In this document: positions 8,848-24,836 of the stretch, piece after piece | How positions within the stretch are numbered: position 1 is the stretch's first letter | How the letters are laid out: every line of letters starts with the position of its first letter | Virus record (IMG/VR): IMGVR_UViG_3300030333_002654 | Span: 1-28,197 of that record | Length of the DNA stretch: 28,197 bases | Strand: one strand, 5' to 3' | Source: a virus | Translations under genes and position numbers: made by a program | Notes under the pieces: generated by a model | Seen by the model: only the letters and a program-made list of their open reading frames with translations | Told to the model about the DNA's origin: nothing | Databases searched by the model: none

Positions 8848-9181
8848 GACTTTGAATAAATTAGTTGATTGGTTAATTGTGGAACCCTCCCTTGAACAAG
8901 AGTTAAAACTCGAACTTGAAGAGAGGGCTATTTTAATATCTGAAGATCACAAAGAGACAGCAATGTTATGCGCCTCTTTATGGAGACAGAATTGGTATAA
9001 AGACGAAATTTTAAAAAATTGTCTTGGAAGAATTGGAGAGTTAGAAGGAAAATTAGTCCAGATGGAACTAGAAAGTTCTAACTCTTGTTGGAAGCGTTTA
9101 CTTAAAAAGGTATTTCCTCGGAGGCAGAAATTTTCCTTTCATCCAGAGCTTGACGCTGTGCTTCGGTCTTTTGTGGATTAA
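8846..9181 (+). CDS. Helical acidic protein (unknown), overlaps next gene
   Basis: A 111-residue protein with a convincing N-terminal 85 residues: LNKLVDWLIVEPSLEQELKL, CASLWRQNWYKDEILKNC, GRIGELEGKLVQMELE. This is a helical, acidic, tryptophan-containing fold without a family I can name. The last 27 residues are read from the opposite strand of the ssDNA-binding-like gene (80-base convergent overlap), so the C-terminus may be a run-on from loss of an earlier stop. It is alone on the plus strand inside a minus-strand block. Confidence 0.55.
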   Translation: MTLNKLVDWLIVEPSLEQELKLELEERAILISEDHKETAMLCASLWRQNWYKDEILKNCLGRIGELEGKLVQMELESSNSCWKRLLKKVFPRRQKFSFHPELDAVLRSFVD

Positions 9182-9485
9182 TGTTTCCAAAAGCTCCATA
9201 ATTTCCACTAAAATTACTTTCTTTACCTTTTGCATTAATCCATACAACATCAACTTCCACTTCTTCTTTTTTGCTAAAATCCCAAACTCTATTTGTTTTA
9301 ACTTTGTCTCTATTGTCACCTAAAGACATTAGATAATCACAAAAAGCTGGAATAGATTCAATTGGAATTGCTAAAGCTAACTGACTTGGGAATTTACCAT
9401 CTTCGTCATAGCTATTCTCTCCAACACTCCACTTGATTGGATAAGGGAGAGCAGGATCGAATTTGTAGTCGTTTTGAATTGCCAT
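9102..9485 (-). CDS. Putative single-stranded DNA-binding protein-like
   Basis: A 127-residue protein. The body is beta-rich with aromatic residues (YPIKWSVGENSYDEDGKF, VWDFSKKEEVEVDVVWIN). The extreme C-terminus reads SASEEIPF, an acidic tip ending Pro-Phe like the DDIPF tail through which SSB proteins recruit partner proteins. It lies 59 bases downstream of the ERF annealing-protein gene, a usual place for a phage SSB. A classical OB-fold signature is not evident, so the call rests on the tail, size and context. The leader before its ATG (AAAAACACGGACAC) is a variant of the AAAAACCACA leader seen upstream of several cassette genes. Confidence 0.5.
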   Translation of the reverse strand: MAIQNDYKFDPALPYPIKWSVGENSYDEDGKFPSQLALAIPIESIPAFCDYLMSLGDNRDKVKTNRVWDFSKKEEVEVDVVWINAKGKESNFSGNYGAFGNINPQKTEAQRQALDERKISASEEIPF

Positions 9486-9544: not shown

Positions 9545-10225
9545 TCAGGAGACATTAATCTCGCCTATTGTTTGTTTAATTATTTTGGCTAAGAAATTAC
9601 CGTGTGCTTCGGTTGTAATGTGATTTGGTGAAATTTCTTTAGCTGAAATTTTAAACTCTCGTTTAAAGCGTTCTAAAACAACTGTTCGTTGAACTTCATC
9701 TAAACTTCTCAAATCATTTTCAACTTGAGATTTGAAAGCTGGAGCAATAAATTGTGATTGCTTTGGAGCAGTTGGAGTTCTAGTAATTCCTTTCTTTTGT
9801 TCAACTTTTGCTGATAGCGGTGCTGAACTTTCTGCGTCATCATCATCTCCTGCTAAACCATAAATAGCTAAAAGTGCATAACGTCTTGCATAAGTAACTG
9901 CTGAACCTAGAGCCTGCATAATGTTCCCTCGATTAGGAACTAATTCAGGAAAAGGTAAACGACTTACTACTTCTTCTCCGCCAACATGTTTTAAAGTTGT
10001 AACTAAAACAGTAATAACTTTACCGTCATTAGTAATAACAGAGTCAAAGGTTTGTGTATGACATAAACCTAAATGAGTTGCAGGCTGGACTGCATTTAAT
10101 CCACCTGCAAGTGTGGTATAAAAACCATAATTAGCCTTCCCATCTTTGCCAGCAGCATGATGCTCTTGTTGGAATTTTGCAAGAGCTTCAGATAGGCTAG
10201 ATGGTGCTTTTGTAGCAACAGCCAT
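9545..10225 (-). CDS. erf: ERF family single-strand annealing protein
   Basis: A 226-residue protein of the ERF superfamily, which anneals complementary single strands in phage recombination and replication. The family signature is clear near residues 105-130: GSAVTYARRYALLAIYGLAG followed by an acidic DDDDAES. The N-terminal core (residues 1-135) has the usual length. A Thr/Pro/Lys-rich linker follows, then a C-terminal helical domain (LDEVQRTVVLERFKREF) that could bind a partner. The gene has its own operator-bearing promoter (10248-10276). An exonuclease-like PD-(D/E)XK gene and a RusA resolvase gene lie just upstream, giving a complete recombination set. Confidence 0.88.
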   Translation of the reverse strand: MAVATKAPSSLSEALAKFQQEHHAAGKDGKANYGFYTTLAGGLNAVQPATHLGLCHTQTFDSVITNDGKVITVLVTTLKHVGGEEVVSRLPFPELVPNRGNIMQALGSAVTYARRYALLAIYGLAGDDDDAESSAPLSAKVEQKKGITRTPTAPKQSQFIAPAFKSQVENDLRSLDEVQRTVVLERFKREFKISAKEISPNHITTEAHGNFLAKIIKQTIGEINVS

Positions 10226-10247
10226 AAGAGATTAGAGGGACTATTTA

Positions 10248-10276
10248 ATCTTAATAAGAATAGATCCATTTGTACA
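10248..10276 (-). promoter_or_regulatory. Operator-type promoter for erf
   Basis: On the minus strand: -35 TGTACA (10271-10276), a 17-base spacer and -10 TAAGAT (10248-10253). The -10 lies in an imperfect copy of the 13-bp palindrome ATCTTA-N-TAAGAT (10248-10260, one mismatch). It sits between the RusA gene and erf, allowing separate expression of erf and the genes after it. Confidence 0.75.
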
Positions 10277-12931: not shown

Positions 12932-13126
12932 ATGACCACTAGGACTCAACAAATTAAAAAAGATCTCCAATGTTATGGAGTTGATCCTTTTCAAGTTGCT
13001 GCTGAAGCAATAGAAAGGGGTGACAGACTTTTAGCTCAAGTTAATCGGCTGCAAAAGGTTCTCGCCCAAGTGCCTGATTTAAAAGTTCGCGGACAACATT
13101 GCTCTGGCTTGTGTTCGCATCAATAG
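12932..13126 (+). CDS. Small helical protein (unknown), overlaps RHH gene
   Basis: A 64-residue protein from the ATG at 12932 (a TTG two codons earlier is possible). The first 45 residues look coding: TTRTQQIKKDLQCYGVDPF, then AAEAIERGDRLLAQVNRLQK, a helical or coiled-coil sequence. The rest (VRGQHCSGLCSHQ) lies opposite the RHH gene, with an 86-base tail-to-tail overlap. It has its own TATAAT-type promoter. It is the only plus-strand gene with a good promoter in this minus-strand zone. Confidence 0.5.
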   Translation: MTTRTQQIKKDLQCYGVDPFQVAAEAIERGDRLLAQVNRLQKVLAQVPDLKVRGQHCSGLCSHQ

Positions 13127-13217
13127 CTAATCGAGCGATCTGTTTTTTGACTTCCGGAGTGACACTTACTTGAAGGATTTCACTCCATAATTCACTGCCT
13201 CTTGTTTTGTTTGGCAT
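13041..13217 (-). CDS. Ribbon-helix-helix transcription regulator (58 aa)
   Basis: A 58-residue protein that fits the ribbon-helix-helix (CopG/Arc-like) fold along most of its length: a lead (MPNKTRGSELWSEI), the beta strand LQVSVTP, helix 1 EVKKQIARLAIDANT and helix 2 SQSNVVRELLNQALG. Strand plus two helices with a turn is the standard DNA-binding arrangement for dimers that read palindromes. The ATG at 13217 sits about 16 bases from a variant of the 13-bp operator (13233-13245), suggesting autoregulation, and its mRNA leader would be nearly absent. It is the best in-window candidate for the protein that binds ATCTTA-N-TAAGAT. It overlaps the plus-strand gene 12932-13126. Confidence 0.72.
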   Translation of the reverse strand: MPNKTRGSELWSEILQVSVTPEVKKQIARLAIDANTSQSNVVRELLNQALGREPFAAD

Positions 13218-13232
13218 TATTAGATTTTATTA

Positions 13233-13245
13233 ATCTCAATAATAT
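13233..13245 (-). promoter_or_regulatory. Operator variant upstream of the RHH gene
   Basis: ATCTCAATAATAT on the plus strand (ATATTATTGAGAT on the minus strand), the same sequence as the operator core at 14173-14185 but inverted. An overlapping AGATT-N5-AATCT palindrome lies at 13222-13236. It is located just before the RHH start codon. The -10 (TGAGAT) and -35 are weak here, so the site reads more clearly as an operator than as a promoter. Confidence 0.55.
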
Positions 13246-13248
13246 AAT

Positions 13249-13282
13249 AAAAAACCTGAAAAGCTATTGCCTCTCAGGTTTT
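13249..13282 (-). terminator. Intrinsic terminator of gene 13293-13523
   Basis: On the minus strand, a 9-bp stem AAAACCTGA/TCAGGTTTT (13274-13282 with 13251-13259) with a 14-base loop is followed by T-rich sequence. It ends the upstream minus-strand gene and insulates the RHH gene. Confidence 0.75.
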
Positions 13283-13292
13283 AGTGTTTTGT

Positions 13293-13523
13293 TTAGTAGT
13301 TCAACTTTACTATATGCTTTGTACAAGACCAAGTAAGACCTTCTTTTTTTGCATCTGCAATAAGTTCGTTCTTCTCGTCTTCTGAATAAGCATGTTCATC
13401 CCATTTGTTAGTTGTGATAAACCAGTAATAACTTGGATTGTCTTCCGCGTATTTTTCCTCTTGTGCTTGAATATCAAGTTGTTCGAGGTGGCGGTTTAAA
13501 TCTGCTTCAACTGGGCAAGACAT
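13293..13523 (-). CDS. Small acidic protein (unknown), cassette gene
   Basis: A 76-residue protein from the ATG at 13523. An in-frame ATG at 13586 would put the promoter and leader inside the gene and is rejected. Sequence: CPVEADLNRHLEQLDIQAQE, then YYWFITTNKWDEHAYSEDEK and a basic end (SCTKHIVKLNY). Acidic overall with a central aromatic patch. It forms a self-contained transcription unit: promoter 13549-13577, leader AAAAAACCACAA directly before the ATG, terminator 13249-13282. Function unknown; such units in phages are often early host-takeover genes (inference). Confidence 0.65.
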   Translation of the reverse strand: MSCPVEADLNRHLEQLDIQAQEEKYAEDNPSYYWFITTNKWDEHAYSEDEKNELIADAKKEGLTWSCTKHIVKLNY

Positions 13524-13548
13524 TTGTGGTTTTTTATTGGACTCTTTA

Positions 13549-13577
13549 ATCTTATTAAGATTAAGCCTGTTTGTACA
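13549..13577 (-). promoter_or_regulatory. Operator-type promoter for 13293-13523
   Basis: Minus strand: -35 TGTACA (13572-13577), 17-base spacer, -10 TAAGAT (13549-13554). A perfect palindrome ATCTTA-T-TAAGAT covers 13549-13561. The transcript would start about 18-20 bases before the AAAAAACCACAA leader and start codon. Confidence 0.85.
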
Positions 13578-13618
13578 CGATTGCATCTTTACTGTTGCAA
13601 CATAAATAAAATTTATTT

Positions 13619-13831
13619 TTATGGTGCTGGAGTAAGCATATGTTGTGCATGTTCTGAAGTACGTCCATCAGGCCATTTAATTGTGCAGTAATAGCCAGGA
13701 GTCCCTTTTTTATTGAATTTAACTTTTAGTGATACGACTTTTCCAACTGCAGGAGCTATTTCTGTATACATCCCTGAAGTTCTTTTCTTGTTTACAAAAT
13801 CACCTTCTTTGTACTTAGAAGTTGCAGGCAT
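13619..13831 (-). CDS. Small KOW/SH3-like beta protein
   Basis: A 70-residue, basic, beta-rich protein: KYKEGDFVNKKRTSGMYTEI, then VGKVVSLKVKFNKKGTPGYY and IKWPDGRTSEH. The pattern of a short strand, GDFV turn and GKVVSL strand resembles small SH3-like barrels (KOW type) that bind nucleic acid or protein surfaces. The resemblance is structural intuition, not a named family. It lies after the terminator of the upstream gene (13854-13880), so it has its own start signal or read-through. The region before the ATG is A-rich (TTTTATAAAAAAAACA) without a clear operator. Confidence 0.5.
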   Translation of the reverse strand: MPATSKYKEGDFVNKKRTSGMYTEIAPAVGKVVSLKVKFNKKGTPGYYCTIKWPDGRTSEHAQHMLTPAP

Positions 13832-13853
13832 TGTTTTTTTTATAAAATAAGGT

Positions 13854-13880
13854 AAAAAAAAAGGCTCCTTTTCAGGAGCC
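13854..13880 (-). terminator. Intrinsic terminator of gene 13888-14142
   Basis: Minus strand: GGCTCC-TGAAAA-GGAGCC stem-loop followed by nine T. It lies 7 bases after the stop of gene 13888-14142. Confidence 0.9.
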
Positions 13881-13887
13881 GTTTTGG

Positions 13888-14142
13888 TTAAGCAAAAGTT
13901 CTATCGAACATTTTGCGGGTCATCTGAGTTGCTTGACGAAGATCACGAACAGCTGAATTAAATTCTGTTGTGTGAATCTCCCATCTTTTAATCAGATTGG
14001 TTTTTTGAGCATTCCAAGTGATAATACCTGAATTGCTTTTTTTATTCTTAGCTTGTTCTGCTTGAAAAGCTTTGAATAAATCCTCACGGTTCCAAACTTT
14101 GTTAGTAGCTGGGTTTACGTGAGAGAATGGTTTTTTAGCCAT
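13888..14142 (-). CDS. Small basic protein (unknown), cassette gene
   Basis: An 84-residue basic protein: AKKPFSHVNPATNKVWNRED, LFKAFQAEQAKNKKSNSG, then LIKRWEIHTTEFNSAVRDLR and MTRKMFDRTFA. Helical, with a basic N-terminus; no known motif. Self-contained unit: promoter 14173-14201, leader AAAAACCACACAGG about 14 bases before the ATG, terminator 13854-13880. Function unknown. Confidence 0.62.
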   Translation of the reverse strand: MAKKPFSHVNPATNKVWNREDLFKAFQAEQAKNKKSNSGIITWNAQKTNLIKRWEIHTTEFNSAVRDLRQATQMTRKMFDRTFA

Positions 14143-14172
14143 TTAAAAGACCTGTGTGGTTTTTACTCTTTA

Positions 14173-14201
14173 ATATTATTGAGATTATTTGAAGTCGTAC
14201 A
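14173..14201 (-). promoter_or_regulatory. Operator-type promoter for 13888-14142
   Basis: Minus strand: -35 TGTACG (14196-14201), 17-base spacer, -10 TAATAT (14173-14178). The operator is a diverged palindrome, ATATTATTGAGAT (14173-14185). The same variant occurs inverted before the RHH gene. Confidence 0.7.
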
Positions 14202-14262
14202 CGTATTTTTTAAAATTGATGCGTTTTGATGCGGTTTCTTTGTATTTGTTTAGGGGTCTTAC

Positions 14263-14391
14263 ATGACAAAAAAAGAAAAACCACTAACTTTTTTTTTCGT
14301 GACGGATGACGAAATCACGGCCAATGCCCCAAAACTAAGTCCAGTCCTTCTCGTAAAGAAGTTTTCCTGCTTTTACAATTTCTTTTCCTAG
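14263..14391 (+). CDS. Candidate 42-residue plus-strand ORF
   Basis: A 42-codon frame beginning MTKKEKPLTFFFVTDDEITA, with an AGGGG Shine-Dalgarno sequence 6 bases before the ATG (14252-14256). The N-terminal half looks coding; the second half lies antisense to the gene at 14335-14514 and looks less so. A 14-base TTTTGATGCGGTTT motif upstream (14224-14237) also occurs before the ParB-like gene. It may be a genuine small gene or the remnant of a longer plus-strand gene. Low confidence. Confidence 0.3.
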   Translation: MTKKEKPLTFFFVTDDEITANAPKLSPVLLVKKFSCFYNFFS

Positions 14392-14514
14392 TCTTTCGTT
14401 AGACCATCCTCTTTGAAAAGCTAAACCTGACCAATCTTCTGCTGTTAATGCTTTAAGTATCTTTGGATTAAGAAACTCAAGAGGCATTGACTCAGGAATT
14501 TTTCTAATGTCCAT
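14335..14514 (-). CDS. Small helical protein (unknown)
   Basis: A 59-residue protein from the second of two adjacent ATGs (14514; the other at 14517). Sequence: DIRKIPESMPLEFLNPKILK, ALTAEDWSGLAFQRGWSNER and LGKEIVKAGKLLYEKDW. Helical with a Trp-containing middle; no recognised family. It overlaps the preceding minus-strand gene by 11-14 bases and is the last gene of the operon that starts at the DUF2958 gene. No clear terminator follows. Confidence 0.5.
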   Translation of the reverse strand: MDIRKIPESMPLEFLNPKILKALTAEDWSGLAFQRGWSNERLGKEIVKAGKLLYEKDWT

Positions 14515-14689
14515 CATTTATTCTGTCTAAAGTTAGTTTAATCTCTTTCTTTAGGTAAGGAATTTGTTCTTCCAGCTTCTCCGGTAAAAAAACACAAATC
14601 TTTCGATCTGCTTCTTGGCAAAGAAGGTCAAGAACATATTCCAATCGTTGGATTTTAATTCGAGTATCCATCTCTTTTTGAGTTGTCAT
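14504..14689 (-). CDS. Small helical protein (unknown)
   Basis: A 61-residue charged protein (KIQRLEYVLDLLCQEADRKI, then LPEKLEEQIPYLKKEIKLTL). Predicted helical, possibly coiled coil. It starts 2 bases after the stop of the ParB-fold gene, so it is expressed from the same message. No known function. Confidence 0.5.
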   Translation of the reverse strand: MTTQKEMDTRIKIQRLEYVLDLLCQEADRKICVFLPEKLEEQIPYLKKEIKLTLDRINDGH

Positions 14690-14691
14690 TT

Positions 14692-15651
14692 CTATTTCTC
14701 GTTAGTTAATGGAACGCCTCTAAAAACGCTAAAAGGATCTTTTGTCATATTGTCAACCCTTAAAGCAGGTGCCCTTCCTTGCATAAAGTAATAGGCAGCA
14801 GTGCAATAAAGTTTGAAAGCGTCTTGCCCATACATGGTTTTACCTAAACCTTTTCTAGCAATTAGCTTTTCTTTTAACTTAAATGGAATTTGATCTGTGT
14901 TGTAGTCAATCATGTGGTCTTTTGATTTACCATCAATACATAAATCCAACCAATAAGTGCTCCTTTCATAAGGTTCCATTCCATGAGGAAACTCGTTAAA
15001 GCGTGCTTTTCCTACTTTCATTTCTAAGAAAATTTTAAAAGCAGAAGCAACATAGTTCCCAATGTATTTAGCTCTTAAGTACCCGTCTGCTTCAAGTTGT
15101 TCAAAATATTCTGAATGTCTTTTGTAATAAGAGGCAATTAAATCATCATATTTTGAGTTAGCAAACTTGGCTGATCCTGTAAAATTTGCATCCCAATCGC
15201 CAAATGAAGCTTTAATAACTGCACAAGCTTTAGGGTGCATAGGTGTTCCATGAACAGCAATACGATCAGCTTGACTTCGCTTATTACCAATATCAAAATG
15301 CTTAACTGTTGTGTGATCAATGTTTCTTAAAACATTAAAATGACAAGGAATATCTGCTACAACAACAGCCGACAATCGGTGTTGACCATTAACTAATTGG
15401 CCTAGTTCATTAAAAGCAAGACAGTCCCAACTTAAGTGAAAATTGCCGTCTTTTATGTCACTAACTATTTGAGCAACACTAGAAGATCTAATCTTTCTGT
15501 TGTTTTCAAAATTAGTTTCTAAATACTCTAAAGCTTTTTCTTTATCGATTAATTCAACATCAAAAGTTACTTTTGAATAGTCAAGGTCAGGTTTTCTAAG
15601 CTTTTTAATCTCAGTAATGTTTGATGACCTTCTTGTTCTTCTTGTTCTCAT
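14692..15651 (-). CDS. ParB/sulfiredoxin-fold phage protein
   Basis: A 319-residue protein starting at the ATG at 15651, which overlaps the TGA of the small upstream gene (ATGA). An in-frame ATG at 15669 lies inside that gene and is less likely. After a basic lead (RTRRTRRSSN) the ParB/Srx-type core is seen at residues 40-110: IVSDIKDGNFHLSW, LAFNELGQLVNGQHRLSAVV and HFDIGNKRSQADRIA. The NGQHRL motif is the box typical of this superfamily, whose members bind or cleave DNA or bind nucleotides. The C-terminal two thirds are helical and I do not recognise them. Close relatives in phages are unannotated as a rule; the role could be DNA binding or an early host function. Confidence 0.68.
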   Translation of the reverse strand: MRTRRTRRSSNITEIKKLRKPDLDYSKVTFDVELIDKEKALEYLETNFENNRKIRSSSVAQIVSDIKDGNFHLSWDCLAFNELGQLVNGQHRLSAVVVADIPCHFNVLRNIDHTTVKHFDIGNKRSQADRIAVHGTPMHPKACAVIKASFGDWDANFTGSAKFANSKYDDLIASYYKRHSEYFEQLEADGYLRAKYIGNYVASAFKIFLEMKVGKARFNEFPHGMEPYERSTYWLDLCIDGKSKDHMIDYNTDQIPFKLKEKLIARKGLGKTMYGQDAFKLYCTAAYYFMQGRAPALRVDNMTKDPFSVFRGVPLTNEK

Positions 15652-15779
15652 TTTTTTAAAGACTCGCAAGCTAATTGGATTTTGTTGACCTCACAATCGT
15701 GTTTAGTCATATCGGAAAGAGATGAATTAACACCCCAAAAAAGAACCGCCATAAAGGCGGTAAAAAAGAGGAATCTCAT
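15648..15779 (-). CDS. 43-residue membrane/secreted peptide gene
   Basis: A 43-residue product: hydrophobic N-terminus FLFFTAFMAVLFWGV, then NSSLSDMTKHDCEVNKIQLA and CESLKK. The first 16 residues form a signal peptide or single membrane helix, and two cysteines lie in the short outer part. It is linked on both sides: its ATG overlaps the TGA of the DUF2958 gene, and its TGA overlaps the ATG of the ParB-fold gene (ATGA twice), which strongly supports it as real. A perfect inverted repeat, ACCGCC-N5-GGCGGT (15745-15761), lies within its coding sequence and could attenuate transcription. Confidence 0.62.
   Translation of the reverse strand: MRFLFFTAFMAVLFWGVNSSLSDMTKHDCEVNKIQLACESLKK
15740..15761 (-). 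terminator. Hairpin within small gene (possible attenuator)
   Basis: Minus strand: ACCGCC-TTTAT-GGCGGT stem-loop followed by TTCTTTTTTG. It has the shape of an intrinsic terminator, placed 15 bases after the stop of the DUF2958 gene. It is inside the 43-residue gene, so it would cut off the distal operon unless read through or translated. Interpreted as a partial terminator or attenuator. Confidence 0.55.
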
Positions 15780-16057
15780 TTTGTTAATTCCTCAAAACTT
15801 GTTGTTTCGAAAGAAAGATCTCTTTCAACTTTTAATCCGAATGGACCTTGAATAGCTTCAATCTCTTTCTTGTTGAAATAGCCCATCTCTTTTTCATGGC
15901 CTTCAACATATCCAAAACAGTCACCTGTTTTTGGGTCGTATTCCATGACGTACCAAGTCCAGTAAGTCCAGGGTGTAAACCATTTCACATAAGCCTTATT
16001 TGTAGCTGAATGAATGGCGGGAAGCTTTTTCTCAAGAGCTTTTGTTAATAGCTTCAT
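15776..16057 (-). CDS. DUF2958 family protein
   Basis: A 93-residue protein of the DUF2958 family. Recognised by the sequence and its order: LLTKALEKKLPAIHSA, KWFTPWTYWTWYVMEYD (Trp-rich strand), FGYVEGHEKEMGYFNKKEIE, and GPFGLKVERDLSFETTSFEE. Length fits the family (about 90-110 residues), whose biochemical role is unknown and which is frequent on plasmids and phages. It opens an operon with the 43-residue gene, the ParB-fold gene and two small genes. Its promoter is 16081-16109, and the AAAAACCACA leader touches the ATG. Confidence 0.8.
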   Translation of the reverse strand: MKLLTKALEKKLPAIHSATNKAYVKWFTPWTYWTWYVMEYDPKTGDCFGYVEGHEKEMGYFNKKEIEAIQGPFGLKVERDLSFETTSFEELTK

Positions 16058-16080
16058 TGTGGTTTTTATTGAACAATTTA

Positions 16081-16109
16081 ATCTTAATAAGATTAGAAGC
16101 CTTTGTACA
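16081..16109 (-). promoter_or_regulatory. Operator-type promoter for the DUF2958 operon
   Basis: Minus strand: -35 TGTACA (16104-16109), 17-base spacer, -10 TAAGAT (16081-16086). Perfect 13-bp palindrome ATCTTA-A-TAAGAT at 16081-16093. It drives five genes (16057 down to 14335). The -35 lies directly after the stop of the upstream gene. Confidence 0.87.
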
Positions 16110-16110
16110 C

Positions 16111-16443
16111 TTAGTTTGCAATTTCGTTGTATTCATTAAATAAATACCCATCAGCATTTGCTGCTTCAGTCCATGAATTAGGCTTAAGCTCATCTTCTAA
16201 AGACTTGTCTTTAAGATTCTTTATGGCTTGGAGAGTATCAAGAGCTTCGACTAAAGGGTTTAATTCCGGTCTAGTTAATCCAGCTTTTTTTACTTGAATA
16301 TCATTGATTGATAAAAGCAATCTTTGGATTGCTCTATAAGCAACACCAGCATCATTTATAGGATCTGTTTCAAGTGGTTCCCAATTTCCAGCAGATTCTT
16401 CTTTATACAATTTGCCTTTAATCATTCTGATTTCTTTTGGCAT
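16111..16443 (-). CDS. Small protein (unknown), cassette gene
   Basis: A 110-residue protein from the ATG at 16443. An in-frame ATG at 16536 would cross the terminator and the preceding gene and is rejected. Sequence: IRMIKGKLYKEESAGNWEPL, ETDPINDAGVAYRAIQRLLL, INDIQVKKAGLTRPELNPLV, then LDTLQAIKNLKDKSLEDELK. Alpha/beta with a helical C-terminus. The leader ends ACAAAAACC directly before the ATG, a truncated form of the shared leader. No operator is seen upstream, so it may depend on read-through from the 16508-16744 gene. Function unknown. Confidence 0.57.
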   Translation of the reverse strand: MPKEIRMIKGKLYKEESAGNWEPLETDPINDAGVAYRAIQRLLLSINDIQVKKAGLTRPELNPLVEALDTLQAIKNLKDKSLEDELKPNSWTEAANADGYLFNEYNEIAN

Positions 16444-16470
16444 GGTTTTTGTAGGGGGTAAATGTAGGAA

Positions 16471-16494
16471 AAATAAAAAGCCCCCGAAGGGGCT
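16471..16494 (-). terminator. Intrinsic terminator with UUCG loop, gene 16508-16744
   Basis: Minus strand: AGCCCC-TTCG-GGGGCT followed by TTTTTATTTTT. A stable tetraloop stem of six pairs placed 14 bases after the stop of the upstream gene. Confidence 0.88.
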
Positions 16495-16507
16495 AGTAAA
16501 ATTTAAT

Positions 16508-16744
16508 TTAAAGAGCGTCGTGCCATTTTGTACCAAAGGCAGACATCATTTCATAGTCAGAAGGCTCGTCATTTTCTTCTTCTAAATCGTCAATCAATTC
16601 AGTAGAAGCTTTTGTTAATCCTTCTGCAGCTTCTCCTAAGTTCTTAGCAGCTTTTTCAATCTCTTTAATGTTCTGTCTAAAAACCTCGTCGCCATCTTTC
16701 ATTGTTTGAACGATTTCTCTGAGGCTGTCAGCAAGTTGACCCAT
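16508..16744 (-). CDS. Small acidic helical protein (unknown), cassette gene
   Basis: A 78-residue helical acidic protein: GQLADSLREIVQTMKDGDEV, KEIEKAAKNLGEAAEGLTKA, then LIDDLEEENDEPSDYEMM. The first 52 residues have heptad character; the tail is acidic like DNA mimics or protein inhibitors, although at this length that is only suggestive. Self-contained unit: promoter 16795-16823, leader AAAAACCACACGGAG before the ATG, terminator 16471-16494. Function unknown. Confidence 0.62.
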   Translation of the reverse strand: MGQLADSLREIVQTMKDGDEVFRQNIKEIEKAAKNLGEAAEGLTKASTELIDDLEEENDEPSDYEMMSAFGTKWHDAL

Positions 16745-16794
16745 TTGAAACTCCGTGTGGTTTTTGGAAATGAGAAATAAATTCTCATACGGTT

Positions 16795-16823
16795 ATCTTA
16801 ATAAGATTATTTGATTTTGTACA
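16795..16823 (-). promoter_or_regulatory. Operator-type promoter for 16508-16744
   Basis: Minus strand: -35 TGTACA (16818-16823), 17-base spacer, -10 TAAGAT (16795-16800). Perfect 13-bp palindrome at 16795-16807. Confidence 0.87.
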
Positions 16824-16828
16824 TGCCC

Positions 16829-16851
16829 AAAAAAAAAGAGCCTTGCGGCTC
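16829..16851 (-). terminator. Intrinsic terminator with GCAA loop, gene 16855-17130
   Basis: Minus strand: GAGCC-GCAA-GGCTC followed by nine T (16829-16837). It lies 3 bases after the stop of the upstream gene and immediately before the next promoter. Confidence 0.88.
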
Positions 16852-16854
16852 CTT

Positions 16855-17130
16855 TTACATTCCAACTGATTGCCAATAGCCTTCAGCATAAACTCGCCAA
16901 CGTCCATTCCTTTTGTAGAACTCTGCATGTGATCCACAGATGTATCGAATAGCTTCGCTTACAACGTCATGCATTTTTGCTGGACAAGAATGTTCAATTT
17001 CATCTTTCCAGTGTTGACCTTTATGTAAAACAGAATTTAAAGCGTTTGAAAGATCTTTATGGGTGTAAGGAGTTCCTTCCACTTTCATATTGTCCCATTC
17101 GACTTTTAACTGTTCTTGTGTTTTTGTCAT
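16855..17130 (-). CDS. Small protein (unknown), first cassette gene
   Basis: A 91-residue protein: TKTQEQLKVEWDNMKVEGTP, YTHKDLSNALNSVLHKGQHW, then SCPAKMHDVVSEAIRYICGS and HAEFYKRNGRWRVYAEGYW. Alpha-helical N-terminus and an aromatic, basic C-terminus with three cysteines; no known family. It is the first minus-strand gene after the divergent control region, with operator 17154-17166, leader AAAAAACCAC directly before the ATG, and terminator 16829-16851. Confidence 0.6.
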   Translation of the reverse strand: MTKTQEQLKVEWDNMKVEGTPYTHKDLSNALNSVLHKGQHWKDEIEHSCPAKMHDVVSEAIRYICGSHAEFYKRNGRWRVYAEGYWQSVGM

Positions 17131-17243
17131 GTGGTTTTTTAATTGACTTTTTAATCTTATTGAGATAATGCCCTTCTTTTTATTTTTGATGCGGTTTGTT
17201 GCAATCTTAGTAAGATAAAATTATTAAAAGCTTCATATGCTGA
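17131..17243. promoter_or_regulatory. Divergent control region between early cassettes and packaging genes
   Basis: Holds the minus-strand unit start (operator ATCTTA-T-TGAGAT, 17154-17166; -10 TAAGAT at 17154-17159 but no good -35, TAAAAA at 17177-17182) and the plus-strand promoter for the ParB-like gene (17186-17216). The motif TTTTGATGCGGTTT (17184-17197) lies between and is duplicated at 14224-14237. A protein binding both palindromes could switch both directions. Confidence 0.6.
17186..17216 (+). promoter_or_regulatory. Operator-type promoter for packaging operon
   Basis: Plus strand: -10 TAAGAT (17211-17216) inside a perfect palindrome ATCTTA-G-TAAGAT (17204-17216). The best -35 is TTGATG (17186-17191) with a 19-base spacer, weaker than the minus-strand members. 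It precedes the ParB-like gene by 27 bases. Confidence 0.6.
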
Positions 17244-17747
17244 ATGACTTCAATACAAGACCTTAAGCCTGATCCTCAAAATGCTCGAAAAAGAACTGAC
17301 CGATCTGCTTCTCTTATAAAAGAATCTATTCAACGTTATGGAACAGGTCGCTCAATAGTTATTGATGAAGATAATCGTATTCTTGCCGGTAATGGAACTG
17401 TTGAAGGAGCAAAAGCAAATGGCGTTAAAAACGTCCGTGTGATTGAAGCAGATGGAACAGAGGTGATTGCAATAAAAAGAACAGGATTAACAGAAGAGCA
17501 AAAAATTGGTTTAGCTCTAGCCGATAACAGAACAAGTGATTTATCCGATTGGGATCGGGAGATGCTGCACAATCTTTCTCAAACCCATGACGTCAGCCCT
17601 TGGTTTGATGAAGAAGACTTAGAAAACTTGCTGGGTCAAGCTGATATCAAGGAATACGAAGGAGCAACAGAACACTCAGAAGAAGATTTTGACAACTTCC
17701 AGCACACTTGCCCTAGATGTGGATTTGAGTTTGATGGAAAAAACTAA
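17244..17747 (+). CDS. ParB-like nuclease-domain protein with C-terminal CxxC
   Basis: A 167-residue protein. The ParB N-terminal domain fills residues 1-85: LKPDPQNARKRTDRS, IKESIQRYGTGRSIVID, RILAGNGTVEGAKANG (the GNGT box), then helix TEEQKIGLALADNRTSDLS. An acidic linker follows. The last residues, HTCPRCGFEFDGKN, form a single CPRC knuckle, half of a zinc ribbon. This domain order before methyltransferase and terminase genes is common in siphoviruses, where the protein is thought to act in DNA modification or packaging. It overlaps the methyltransferase gene by 14 bases. Confidence 0.8.
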   Translation: MTSIQDLKPDPQNARKRTDRSASLIKESIQRYGTGRSIVIDEDNRILAGNGTVEGAKANGVKNVRVIEADGTEVIAIKRTGLTEEQKIGLALADNRTSDLSDWDREMLHNLSQTHDVSPWFDEEDLENLLGQADIKEYEGATEHSEEDFDNFQHTCPRCGFEFDGKN

Positions 17748-18774
17748 AGGGTCATGGAACCTGACCGATCTTGCTGGAATAAAAAAGAACGGTTTTAAAG
17801 TTTTTAGTTGCTTCCATTGTGGTGGTGGTTCTTCAATGGGATATAAACTTGCAGGTTTTCATGTCTTAGGTGGTGTTGAAATAGATCCAGAAATGATGGC
17901 GTTATATCGTGCAAACCATAATCCAAAACATAGTTTTCTTATGGGTGTTCAAGAGTTTAATAAAATTCCTTTAGAAGAAATTCCTGATGAATTAAAAAAT
18001 TTAGATATTCTTGATGGATCTCCACCTTGTTCAGTTTTTAGCATGGCTGGCAAGCGTGAAAAAAAATGGGGTAAAGAAAATTATTTTAGAGAAGGTCAAA
18101 AAAAGCAAAAGCTAGATGATCTTTTTGGTCATTTTATTGAAGTAGGAAAAAGGCTTCAGCCCAAAATAATTGTGGCTGAAAATGTTAAAGGCTTAATTGC
18201 TGGGAATGCCAAAGGATATGTAAAAGAAATTTTTACGGCCTTTCGTGAAGCTGGATATAGTGCACAGCTTTTTCTTTTTAACTCAGTAAAAATGGGAGTC
18301 CCTCAAACAAGAGCAAGAACTTTTTTTCTTGCTCGACGGAATAATTTAAACCTAGCAAAAATTCACTTAAGCTTTGATGAGCAGATTGTAACGATTAAGC
18401 AAGCCTTACAGGGTACAAGTCCTAAAGGAGCGAAGCCACTAACTGGCAAGGCAGCAAGGTTATGGAAAGGGACTGTTCCAGGCAATAATTTTTCAAAAGC
18501 TGCAGGCGGTTCTTGGTTTACCTGGAATCGACTTTCTTGGAGAAGACCTTCTCCAACAGTTGTAAGCGGGTCGCCTCCGAGTCATCCTGATGAACAGCGT
18601 TTTCTTAGCCCTAGTGAGATTATTCGCATTCAAAGCTTCCCTGATGACTACAATTTCCTTAAATCTGATCCCTGTTATGTTATAGGGATGAGTGTCCCAC
18701 CTTTTATGACTCAGCGAGTGGCTTTAGAAATTGCTGAGAAATGGCTTATTCCAGAGGCTTCAAATGGCGGCTAA
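17734..18774 (+). CDS. dcm: DNA (cytosine-5-)-methyltransferase
   Basis: A 346-residue C5 methyltransferase starting at the ATG at 17734; a longer in-frame start at 17689 lies within the ParB-like gene. Motifs in order: AdoMet-binding motif I variant FSCFHCGGGSSMG (22-36); motif IV SPPCSVFS with the nucleophile Cys99; motif VI AENVKG (148-153); motif VIII QTRARTFF (191-198); motif X near the C-terminus, IGMSVPPFMTQRVALEIA. The target-recognition region (about 225-290) is short. Such phage enzymes mark their own DNA against restriction. No cognate restriction nuclease lies nearby. Overlaps both neighbours (14 and 11 bases), so it is in the packaging operon. Confidence 0.9.
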   Translation: MEKTKGSWNLTDLAGIKKNGFKVFSCFHCGGGSSMGYKLAGFHVLGGVEIDPEMMALYRANHNPKHSFLMGVQEFNKIPLEEIPDELKNLDILDGSPPCSVFSMAGKREKKWGKENYFREGQKKQKLDDLFGHFIEVGKRLQPKIIVAENVKGLIAGNAKGYVKEIFTAFREAGYSAQLFLFNSVKMGVPQTRARTFFLARRNNLNLAKIHLSFDEQIVTIKQALQGTSPKGAKPLTGKAARLWKGTVPGNNFSKAAGGSWFTWNRLSWRRPSPTVVSGSPPSHPDEQRFLSPSEIIRIQSFPDDYNFLKSDPCYVIGMSVPPFMTQRVALEIAEKWLIPEASNGG

Positions 18775-21920: not shown

Positions 21921-24605
21921 ATGTCAACTACTGTTCCTGTTGGGGATGGAATACCTGCTGCGTTCTACCGCAATGCAATAGATCTAAATCGTTTTAGTAA
22001 TAGCATTTCTAAAAAGCTTGTTACTTCATATAACAATGTAATTCTTAAGGCTGTTGAACAATTAGAAAAAATAGAAAAGCAACCATTAAATAAACGCCCT
22101 GCTTATAAAACAGCAAGACTAAGAGCATTAATTAAACAAACAAAAGAGAGCTTAAACATATGGGCTGATGGGAGTGTTCAAGAATTAATTAGTGAGTTAG
22201 AAGGTGTTGCTAAGGTTCAAGCAGGTTTTATTGAAAAACAAATAAAAAATTCAATCCCTAAAGGGATGACAGAAAAAATTGTAGATGAAATTGGATATTC
22301 TGTTAGGTCTGTTGCTGTTAGTCCGTCATTTGCTAAGTCTGTTGTTAATACAGATCCAACAGCTTTAAACCTTTCTGTTTTAAGAAGTGATTTGGCAGGA
22401 GCCAAAGCATCAAAAGGGACTTTTAAATTAACAGCAAAAGAAGGACAAACAATAACGTTACCTAATGGAAATACTGTTAAAAAGTCATTTCGTGAGTTAG
22501 CAGTAGCAGAAGCAAAACGATTAAATCAAGTTGTTAGAACTGGTCTTTTATCTGGAAATACAACGCCTGAAATTGTTAAAGAGTTAGTAGGGAATTTACA
22601 AAAAGATCAAAAAGGAAGCTTAAGTCAGCTTCTTGCTAAAGGAGGAGTTGCAACAAAAAGAGCAAATAGTCAAGTAACAACAATCGTTAGAACAACTGTT
22701 AATCAAGTTACAAATACAGCAAGCCAAGCTGTTTATAAAGCTAATCCTGATGTGACTGAAGAATATCGTTATGTAGCCACTTTAGATTCAAGAACTTCTC
22801 CTGTTTGCAGAGATTTAGATGGTCAAGTTTTTAAATACAATGAAGGTCCAGTGCCTCCTCAGCATTTTGGTTGTCGGTCTACAACTGTTGCTGTTATTAA
22901 TTACAAAAAATATGGTTTTACCCCACCGCCTATAGGAAAGAGAGCAAGTGCAGATGGTCCTGTTCCTGCTAATACAACTTATGGAAAATGGTTATATGGG
23001 GAGCGTGTAAAAGGATCAAAATTCAAACCTGGCAAAGAACAGATTGCAGCATTAGGAGAACAGAAAGCAAAATATTTTAATCGCTTAGCTAATAAATATG
23101 GTCCTGATCAAGCATTAAAGAAATTAATTAGAGAAGACAATACAGAAGTTTCTTTGGCTCAATTACAGAAGAAATATGGAAAGCCTGAAGACATAAAATC
23201 AAAAGCTAAAAAGACAAAACTGCTTTCAGATAAAGAAAAACAATCACTTACTGCATTTGAAAAAATTAAACCACCTTCAAAAGCTTTAATAGCTAAAGAA
23301 GGAAAATATATGACTGCAGCAGAGAAAGCGGGGCTTGTTCCATATAAGCCTTTAACAGCAGCACAAAAGAAAATGGTTGATAAGTCTATTGCAGCACAGA
23401 AGAAAATAATTGATGAAGAAATGGCAGTAATAGACAAACAAATAAAAGAATCCAAAGCAAAATTGAAAGCATTAGAGGCTTCTGAACAATTAAAACCAAA
23501 AGTTGCAACCTTCAAAGACTTATCTCAAGACACTAAAAACAATCTGCAGAACTTTAAGGATGCTGATTTATCAAAACCAAATCATCAAAAATGGTTTAAA
23601 AACAAAAAGGCAATATATTCAGACATTATCCCTAAGGGTAAATATGACAAAATCACTCCAAAGCAATTAGGAAAGTTAGTAGAAAAGAAACAGATAGGTC
23701 ATCTTCAACAGAAATTTAATAAAGATTTTGAGAAGTCATTGCTTCCTCCTAAACCTGTTGTTCCTCGTGCTCCATTAAAGAAATGGGATGACAAGTCGTT
23801 TATCCAAAAGAATATTGGAAGCACTGACACAAAGACACCACCACCACCTCGGATAGCTGTTAAAAATGGAAAGACAAAAACTGATGATCTTTATTGGAAA
23901 CCTAATCCTAAAAATGCTGCTAAAGACTATGACATGACATTGGCACAGCTAAAAGATGCAGAAGAGCAAATAAGCAATTGGACAGGAAGTTACTTTAAAA
24001 ATATTCGATCTATTCAAATAAAACAGGCAAGATCAGTAGGAAAGCAATTAAATCCAAATGAAATTAGCCTTTTAAATAGTTTGGAATACAGGAGAGGAAT
24101 GACTTCCTCCCAACTTGATTTGCTAGCTAGAAATGCTGACAAAATGGAAAGATATATTGCAAGATCACCTAAATGGAATGGAACACCACGCTTTATAAAT
24201 GAGATTGACGAATTATCTAAAAATCCTTTTTATACAAAACAACCTAATGGAACAATTTTTAGAGGAATGACTGTTCACAAAAAAAATATTGTTGATCAAG
24301 TTCTTCAAAATATGGAGAGAGGCGAAGCTGTTTCTACAATGGAAAGTTGGTCAACAAGTGGAAGAACTGCTTTAAAATTTGCAAAAGGAGAAATAGGAGA
24401 TGGTAATCATGGAATTGTATTTAGACATGTCAACAAACATGGAGTACCAATTGAACACTTAAACGGAATGAATGAAAGTGAGATATTGCAGCCAAGTGGA
24501 GTCAGATATAAAGTTCTTAGCAAAAATACAAAAAACTGGACAGAAAAAATTGATGGACAGATAGAAGAGTACTCTATGACTGAAGTTGTTTTAGAAGCTA
24601 TTTAA
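21921..24605 (+). CDS. MuF-type head protein with C-terminal ADP-ribosyltransferase
   Basis: An 894-residue protein, two to three times the usual MuF length. N-terminus: helical head-morphogenesis part. Residues about 200-325 contain the MuF/minor head domain, ending with TLDSRTSPVCRDLDGQVF and PPQHFGCRST, a Cys/His pattern typical of the family. A long Lys-rich linker follows (about 400-690, coiled coil). Residues about 695-894 fit an R-S-E class ADP-ribosyltransferase: IFRGM with Arg781, the STS motif SWSTSGRTALKFA (Ser811-813), and the ESE motif MNESEILQPSG (Glu852, Glu854). All three catalytic signatures are present, so the enzyme is probably active, with NAD as substrate and an unknown host target. 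MuF-linked toxins are known from other phages; delivery with the virion is inferred. The stop overlaps the antisense gene 24598-24783. Confidence 0.88.
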   Translation: MSTTVPVGDGIPAAFYRNAIDLNRFSNSISKKLVTSYNNVILKAVEQLEKIEKQPLNKRPAYKTARLRALIKQTKESLNIWADGSVQELISELEGVAKVQAGFIEKQIKNSIPKGMTEKIVDEIGYSVRSVAVSPSFAKSVVNTDPTALNLSVLRSDLAGAKASKGTFKLTAKEGQTITLPNGNTVKKSFRELAVAEAKRLNQVVRTGLLSGNTTPEIVKELVGNLQKDQKGSLSQLLAKGGVATKRANSQVTTIVRTTVNQVTNTASQAVYKANPDVTEEYRYVATLDSRTSPVCRDLDGQVFKYNEGPVPPQHFGCRSTTVAVINYKKYGFTPPPIGKRASADGPVPANTTYGKWLYGERVKGSKFKPGKEQIAALGEQKAKYFNRLANKYGPDQALKKLIREDNTEVSLAQLQKKYGKPEDIKSKAKKTKLLSDKEKQSLTAFEKIKPPSKALIAKEGKYMTAAEKAGLVPYKPLTAAQKKMVDKSIAAQKKIIDEEMAVIDKQIKESKAKLKALEASEQLKPKVATFKDLSQDTKNNLQNFKDADLSKPNHQKWFKNKKAIYSDIIPKGKYDKITPKQLGKLVEKKQIGHLQQKFNKDFEKSLLPPKPVVPRAPLKKWDDKSFIQKNIGSTDTKTPPPPRIAVKNGKTKTDDLYWKPNPKNAAKDYDMTLAQLKDAEEQISNWTGSYFKNIRSIQIKQARSVGKQLNPNEISLLNSLEYRRGMTSSQLDLLARNADKMERYIARSPKWNGTPRFINEIDELSKNPFYTKQPNGTIFRGMTVHKKNIVDQVLQNMERGEAVSTMESWSTSGRTALKFAKGEIGDGNHGIVFRHVNKHGVPIEHLNGMNESEILQPSGVRYKVLSKNTKNWTEKIDGQIEEYSMTEVVLEAI

Positions 24606-24783
24606 GATAGGAAGGTCTTTCAGAAAGGTTAATTGTTTCTGTTTTAACTCCTTGCTCTTTTAAATAACTGTCTAGGTCTTTGTCAATTTCTTTATTTGTT
24701 CTGTCGTCGTCAGGGTCAATATTGTAGCTAATCCCAATAGCTGTAAAGGGACTTTTATTAAGGTAAGGTTCTTTTTTTGCCAT
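24598..24783 (-). CDS. Small antisense gene beside ART (unknown)
   Basis: A 61-residue protein (AKKEPYLNKSPFTAIGIS, NIDPDDDRTNKEIDKDLD, then YLKEQGVKTETINLSERPS). It carries an acidic DPDDD patch and a basic lead; no recognised family. It is the only minus-strand gene in the head operon and overlaps the last 8 bases of the MuF-ART gene. It has its own operator-type promoter, 24808-24836. It could be an immunity or antitoxin protein against the ART, or an unrelated early cassette that landed here. Its codon style does not differ visibly from its neighbours. Confidence 0.6.
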   Translation of the reverse strand: MAKKEPYLNKSPFTAIGISYNIDPDDDRTNKEIDKDLDSYLKEQGVKTETINLSERPSYLK

Positions 24784-24807
24784 AAGCTTGGCTGCATTTT
24801 GACTCTT

Positions 24808-24836
24808 ATCTTAATAAGATTAGTGACTTTTGTAAA
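24808..24836 (-). promoter_or_regulatory. Operator-type promoter for antisense gene 24598-24783
   Basis: Minus strand: -35 TTTACA (24831-24836), 17-base spacer, -10 TAAGAT (24808-24813). Perfect palindrome ATCTTA-A-TAAGAT at 24808-24820. It is the only copy of this promoter family inside the head gene region, over 7 kb from the others. Confidence 0.85.

Follow-up and report, generated by a model that had tools for sequence, protein, structure and literature searches.

A candidate early regulon of exchangeable small-gene cassettes under a putative ribbon-helix-helix repressor in uncultured cyanophages

The virus record IMGVR_UViG_3300030333_002654 (28,197 bases, analysed over its whole length and hereafter termed the window) is partly related to the cyanophages MED4-184/P-HS2, KBS-S-2A and S-H1. 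It carries an array of small genes, best explained, with a probability of roughly 0.7, as an early regulon that would be repressed by a phage ribbon-helix-helix (RHH) protein and built from independent cassettes that could be swapped without loss of expression. A typical cassette is predicted to comprise a sigma-70-type promoter (-35 TTGACA or TGTACA, a spacer of 17 nucleotides (nt), -10 TAAGAT) with an operator over the -10 element and often a second one over the -35 element, and a short A-rich leader with the motif AACCAC; in most cases a single small gene follows, closed by a strong terminator. The operator is a AATCTTATTAAGATT palindrome, present in nine copies in the window. Five of these precede array genes, and the other four precede the genes of the RHH protein, of an ERF recombinase, of a ParB-like protein and of a 61-residue protein in the head operon. 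A sequence-only reading of this DNA had described at least four operator-leader-gene-terminator units. The four that it listed are confirmed: their palindromes are above chance, their leaders are AAAAACCACA, and all of them close with a strong hairpin and a T-run. That reading had missed a fifth array unit (15776-16057), the operators at 10247, 13232, 17203 and 24807, and the repressor gene.

The palindrome occurs far more often than expected: 22 strand-matches with up to three mismatches are found in the window against 3.9 expected, and none of 100 shuffles reaches 22. With a matrix built from the sites, the nine window copies score 18.5 or more, and random sequence gives about 0.9 matches at a threshold of 10. 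In 32 related contigs, which are mutually related and not independent and which underlie the promoter statistics that follow, 295 operators are found. The -10 hexamer within the palindrome is TAAGAT in 104 of 122 unique promoters; at a distance of exactly 17 nt upstream, 52 of the promoters carry TTGACA and 18 carry TGTACA. In one clade, a further copy of the operator, AATCTTATTGACATT, lies 22 nt upstream and includes TTGACA; the window lineage displays TGTACA at the -35 position and a single operator. Most unit promoters, as predicted from sequence, possess their own -35 and -10 elements with the 17-nt spacing. Since the palindrome covers the polymerase site, its placement is that of a repressor site. 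Direct-repeat pairs of GCATCAAA, possibly an activator site, are found upstream of some clade-1 promoters (12 of 144 units, versus 0.5% of random stretches). Such pairs are located in the window at 14220-14240 and 17184-17200, upstream of unit promoters. In the isolates MED4-184, MED4-117, P-HS2, KBS-S-2A and S-H1, neither an RHH homologue nor, at the matrix threshold used, the operator was found, and screening MED4-184, KBS-S-2A and S-H1 for other repeated palindromes gave nothing clear.

Exact AAAAACCACA occurs six times in the window, of which five directly before the start codons of the array units (13293-13523, 13888-14142, 15776-16057, 16508-16744 and 16855-17130). In the related contigs, 118 of 178 operator genes have AACCAC in the 35 nt that precede them, compared with 20 of the 566 other genes (Fisher p ~1e-69, a value that overstates independence because the contigs are related). 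The form of the leader depends on the clade, with AAAAACCACA in one and ATCAACCACA in the other. AACCAC lies either just 5' of the ATG or before GGAG/AGGA, and its copy at 16756 is located downstream of a 5' hairpin. A role of the leader in RNA structure was also considered, but the short form is unfolded and the idea was dropped for it. Of 144 units, 97 have a terminator behind them, versus 11 of 489 control genes, and all five window units have one.

Exchange of the units is documented by comparison with relatives. The closest cultured phages are the Prochlorococcus phages MED4-184/P-HS2/MED4-117 and the Synechococcus phages KBS-S-2A and S-H1, with 51-54% identity for the terminase and 68-80% for the major head protein. 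IMG/VR holds about 40 relatives nearer to the window than these, and a megablast search of phage records with the 12-kb region returned no match. Comparing the locus across relatives, the check proposed along with the sequence-only reading, reveals that gene content is not identical, in support of modular exchange. The 32 contigs contain 33 gene families with operator plus leader; families U0, U1 and U3 are common, and many others are found in one to three contigs. Self-contained units present in some relatives are absent as a whole in others. Contig L006 harbors two extra units (55- and 63-residue products) between the 16855-17130 unit and the ParB-like gene, flanked by copies of the promoter region. 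In L046, a gene for a 122-residue DUF3085 protein replaces 16855-17130, with sequence identity returning at the promoter and again at the following -35 region, and 13600-13849 is missing. An inversion of the block that runs from U1 towards 14689 is seen in L045, L047 and L049, and its border in L047 lies at the operator 16794-16808. Furthermore, the promoters of the group formed by L006, L044 and the window look chimeric: in the ParB-side promoter of L044, the upstream tract matches L006 promoter 1, the downstream tract matches promoter 3, and the middle tract resembles L006 promoters 2 and 3. Breakpoints fall within 50 bp of an operator in 45% of cases, versus 21% at random.

Mechanistically, the phage-encoded ERF annealing protein and exonuclease would promote homologous recombination that deletes, inserts, swaps or inverts whole units, and this could proceed without breaking expression because all cassettes share the promoter-leader sequence. 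The viruses would then seem to reshuffle their early toolkit cassette by cassette, via shared switch sequences. Several points weigh against this scheme. The enrichment of breakpoints is partly expected, as conserved promoters prolong alignments, and the contigs are metagenomic and several of them partial. Some breakpoints are located inside genes (the C-terminal part of U1, the mosaic U0). Most relatives retain U0, U1 and U3, and exchange is therefore not free for every unit. Self-containment, claimed earlier for the array, does not extend to the two interval genes 13619-13831 and 16111-16443, which have no operator, nor to 14335-15779, which is part of the unit 3 operon headed by 15776-16057. 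The earlier claim of modular exchange is supported by the gain, loss and inversion of units and by the chimeric-looking promoters, with the reservation that core units persist and some breakpoints are intragenic. Alternatively, the cassettes might be ordinary morons or homing-type insertions, the regulatory repeats being kept for expression while recombination takes place elsewhere. Breakpoints within genes and near terminators would suit this explanation, and conserved promoters would align wherever the true crossover lay. However, the same-position promoters of the window, L044 and L006 mix tracts of different unit promoters, and an inversion border is located at an operator, making this explanation an unlikely one.

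The putative repressor is a 58-residue CopG/Arc-like protein. Its assignment to the RHH class is by profile (PF01402, 26.8 bits, above the curated cut-off of 20.5). Its gene adjoins the array, carries its own operator, occurs in 22 related viral loci and is present wherever the checked contigs extend to that point. In an alignment of ten relatives, I14, Q16 and S18 are invariant; by hand alignment with CopG, these are taken to be the DNA-facing strand residues. An open reading frame on the opposite strand (12932-13126) overlaps the RHH gene tail to tail at 13041-13126, and both are conserved in relatives. The sequence layout is that expected of an autoregulated RHH gene with operators at several promoters, in which the RHH protein would bind the palindromes and repress the regulon, including its own gene; this one small phage repressor probably shuts off all cassettes. 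On infection, host RNA polymerase would read the bare DNA and many small proteins would be made together; as the RHH protein built up, it would occupy the palindromes and silence the cassettes, resulting in a short early pulse.

An autoregulated repressor with many operators would also fit immunity control. In that case the phage would be temperate, the RHH protein would be its lysogeny repressor, and the units would be lytic-onset or lysogenic-conversion genes; the fact that operators also control the ERF recombinase and ParB-like genes is in line with it. However, nine related contigs of 27-44 kb, which are perhaps incomplete and in which serine integrases were not searched, yielded neither a tyrosine integrase (PF00589) nor an HTH_3 repressor, and neither the RHH gene nor a long operator pattern was recovered from 84,980 cellular genomes. 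These absences favor a lytic lifestyle with a short-lived early pulse and leave lysogeny quite improbable. Slightly more improbable still is a palindrome serving an activator or a host regulator, with the RHH protein as a mere neighbour: the link between protein and palindrome is drawn from their arrangement and the GCATCAAA pairs could be an activator site, but a palindrome over the -10 element, often with a second copy over the -35 element, is the classic placement of a repressor, and the RHH gene, found wherever the checked contigs reach, has a palindrome of its own.

Table 1. Positions of the regulator gene, the operators and the elements of the five array units in the window.
Feature	Positions	Strand	Remarks
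RHH (CopG/Arc-like) protein, 58 residues, proposed regulon repressor	13041-13217	-	PF01402 E=4.6e-6; PHROG Arc-like repressor
Operator before RHH gene	13232-13246	-	matrix score 18.5; also before RHH gene in relatives
Operator before ERF-like recombinase (9545-10225)	10247-10261	-	matrix site
Operator before rightward ParB-like gene (17244-17747) and DNA methyltransferase gene	17203-17217	+	matrix site
Operator of 61-residue protein gene (24598-24783)	24807-24821	-	matrix site
Unit 1 gene (U0, 76 residues), core unit	13293-13523	-	in 20 contigs
Unit 1 operator	13548-13562	-	contains -10 TAAGAT at 13549-13554
Unit 1 -35 TGTACA	13572-13577	-	17-nt spacer
Unit 1 leader AAAAACCACA	13525-13534	-	
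Unit 1 terminator	13251-13282	-	14-bp stem and T-run
Unit 2 gene (U15, 84 residues), variable	13888-14142	-	
Unit 2 operator	14172-14186	-	matrix site
Unit 2 leader AAAAACCACA	14155-14164	-	
Unit 2 terminator	13863-13880	-	
Unit 3 first gene (U3, DUF2958, 93 residues)	15776-16057	-	PF11171 E=6.3e-12; heads operon reaching 14335
Unit 3 operator	16080-16094	-	matrix site
Unit 3 leader AAAAACCACA	16058-16067	-	
Unit 3 terminator-like hairpin	15745-15761	-	overlaps start of second gene (43 residues) after DUF2958
Unit 4 gene (U1, 78 residues, acidic), core unit	16508-16744	-	in 18 contigs
Unit 4 operator	16794-16808	-	matrix site; inversion border in L045, L047, L049
Unit 4 leader AAAAACCACA	16756-16765	-	after 5' hairpin, before GGAG
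Unit 4 terminator	16479-16494	-	
Unit 5 gene (U4, 91 residues), variable	16855-17130	-	DUF3085 gene instead in L046
Unit 5 operator	17153-17167	-	matrix site
Unit 5 leader AAAAACCACA	17130-17139	-	
Unit 5 terminator	16838-16852	-	

The terminator-like hairpin of unit 3 is possibly an attenuator; relatives also have one after the 43-residue protein gene. Further along this operon, the 14692-15669 protein contains an NGQHRL motif and matches PHROG 5931, and by eye it is possibly ParB/DGQHR-like. At 17244-18774, a single operator serves the ParB-like gene and the DNA methyltransferase gene that follows it, and the methyltransferase might provide self-methylation against restriction. The gene of the 61-residue protein (24598-24783), which has the shared operator, is reversed within the head operon. 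Relatives display other small genes at that place, and 24598-24821 is, as predicted from these comparisons, a second variable slot.

Most unit proteins have no match of known function in Pfam, PHROGs or PADLOC, and PADLOC gave no hit of weight among them. The families matched are DUF2958 (U3), DUF3085 (the replacement gene of L046) and DUF7717 (another unit family), all mobile-element families of unknown function that are hit by variable units. In one example, on a Serratia conjugative plasmid, a DUF3085 gene is located less than 3 kb from ardA. The U0 AlphaFold model displays a β-β-α-β domain of moderate confidence, with no structural relative in the PDB; that of the DUF2958 protein was too poor for a structure search. 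The weak hits of the acidic, coiled U1 protein were dismissed as composition-type matches. Its C-terminal part is swapped between close relatives (78 or 49 residues), an exchange within the gene. DUF2958 is also carried by the single-cell marine virus AG-345-A17 (32% guanine plus cytosine), whose proteins in common with the window are at 41-52% identity. Both encode ERF, DUF2958, the exonuclease and the 9102-9485 and 11909-12184 proteins; the genes in common are few and the array is not present in AG-345-A17. This sharing is a possible clue to the host. An anti-defence role of the units is plausible by the precedents of plasmid p576 (PMC8708921) and virus SIRV2 (PMC11065993), to which the mobile-element families hit by variable units and the DUF3085 gene near ardA may be added; the same grounds are all that a host-takeover role would have. 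The chance that one or more of the variable units act against host defence may be put a little below even.

Cyanophage anti-defence genes easily escape detection, as they are small and resemble nothing known. If the regulon works as proposed, the palindrome and leader would mark such genes by position, and just 32 contigs have yielded the 33 operator-controlled families. A broader proposal, against which the odds lean, is that the shared promoter-leader would act both as an expression signal and as a recombination port for cassettes held population-wide, that an operator scan would list new proteins, and that AACCAC would be a new translation-start element. Were this true, a small gene of any kind that inserts between a promoter and a terminator would join the repressor-timed early pulse, and the scan would bring out many new proteins of marine picocyanobacteria with anti-defence or host-takeover roles. 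The array would also be a tangible example of modular exchange in phages that seems to pass through regulatory sequence itself.

Several known systems resemble the array in part. In phage anti-CRISPR (Acr) operons regulated by anti-CRISPR-associated (Aca) proteins, a strong early promoter is shut off by a small phage repressor (PMC8708921). Acas are described as helix-turn-helix proteins (PMC9410906), whereas the regulator here is of the RHH class and no Acr hit was obtained. The Aca8 set of SIRV2 consists of small, mostly single genes of unknown function behind one strong promoter region, including known anti-CRISPR genes, and the predicted repressor gene has the same promoter as its set (PMC11065993). 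SIRV2, however, is an archaeal virus with archaeal promoters and a predicted winged helix-turn-helix repressor; the regulator here is an RHH protein, and no anti-CRISPR was identified. In cluster K mycobacteriophages, the start-associated sequence and its extended form (SAS/ESAS) form a short asymmetric motif that directly precedes the start codon in many small non-structural genes; in about half of the cases an inverted repeat lies upstream, which has been proposed to be bound by a protein (PMC3203893). The sequences differ from those described here, and the sections consulted report neither a terminator per gene nor an identified repressor (PMC3203893). Phage morons are likewise self-contained one-gene insertions with promoter and terminator, a description that also suits 24598-24783. 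Unlike them, the units here are many and gathered in a single array governed by one operator, with the promoter itself as their common border. A similar layout is that of the establishment regulon of the Bacillus conjugative plasmid p576 (pLS20 family, clade II), in which the RHH repressor Reg-p576 is autoregulated and several promoters have flanking operators. Its downstream genes are mosaic and mostly of unknown function, include an anti-restriction gene, and have been proposed to be expressed in a transient pulse upon entry (PMC8708921). An RHH protein, here putatively autoregulated, and operators at several promoters are common to both layouts, the RHH likeness being at the level of fold class only. 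However, p576 is a plasmid with few operons, whereas the present system belongs to a phage, consists mainly of single-gene units and adds operators over the -10 and -35 elements, an AACCAC leader common to the units and, in most of them, a terminator. It would work like repressor-timed anti-defence regulons and the SAS/ESAS sets, in an arrangement that is new and is found in an uncultured cyanophage group.

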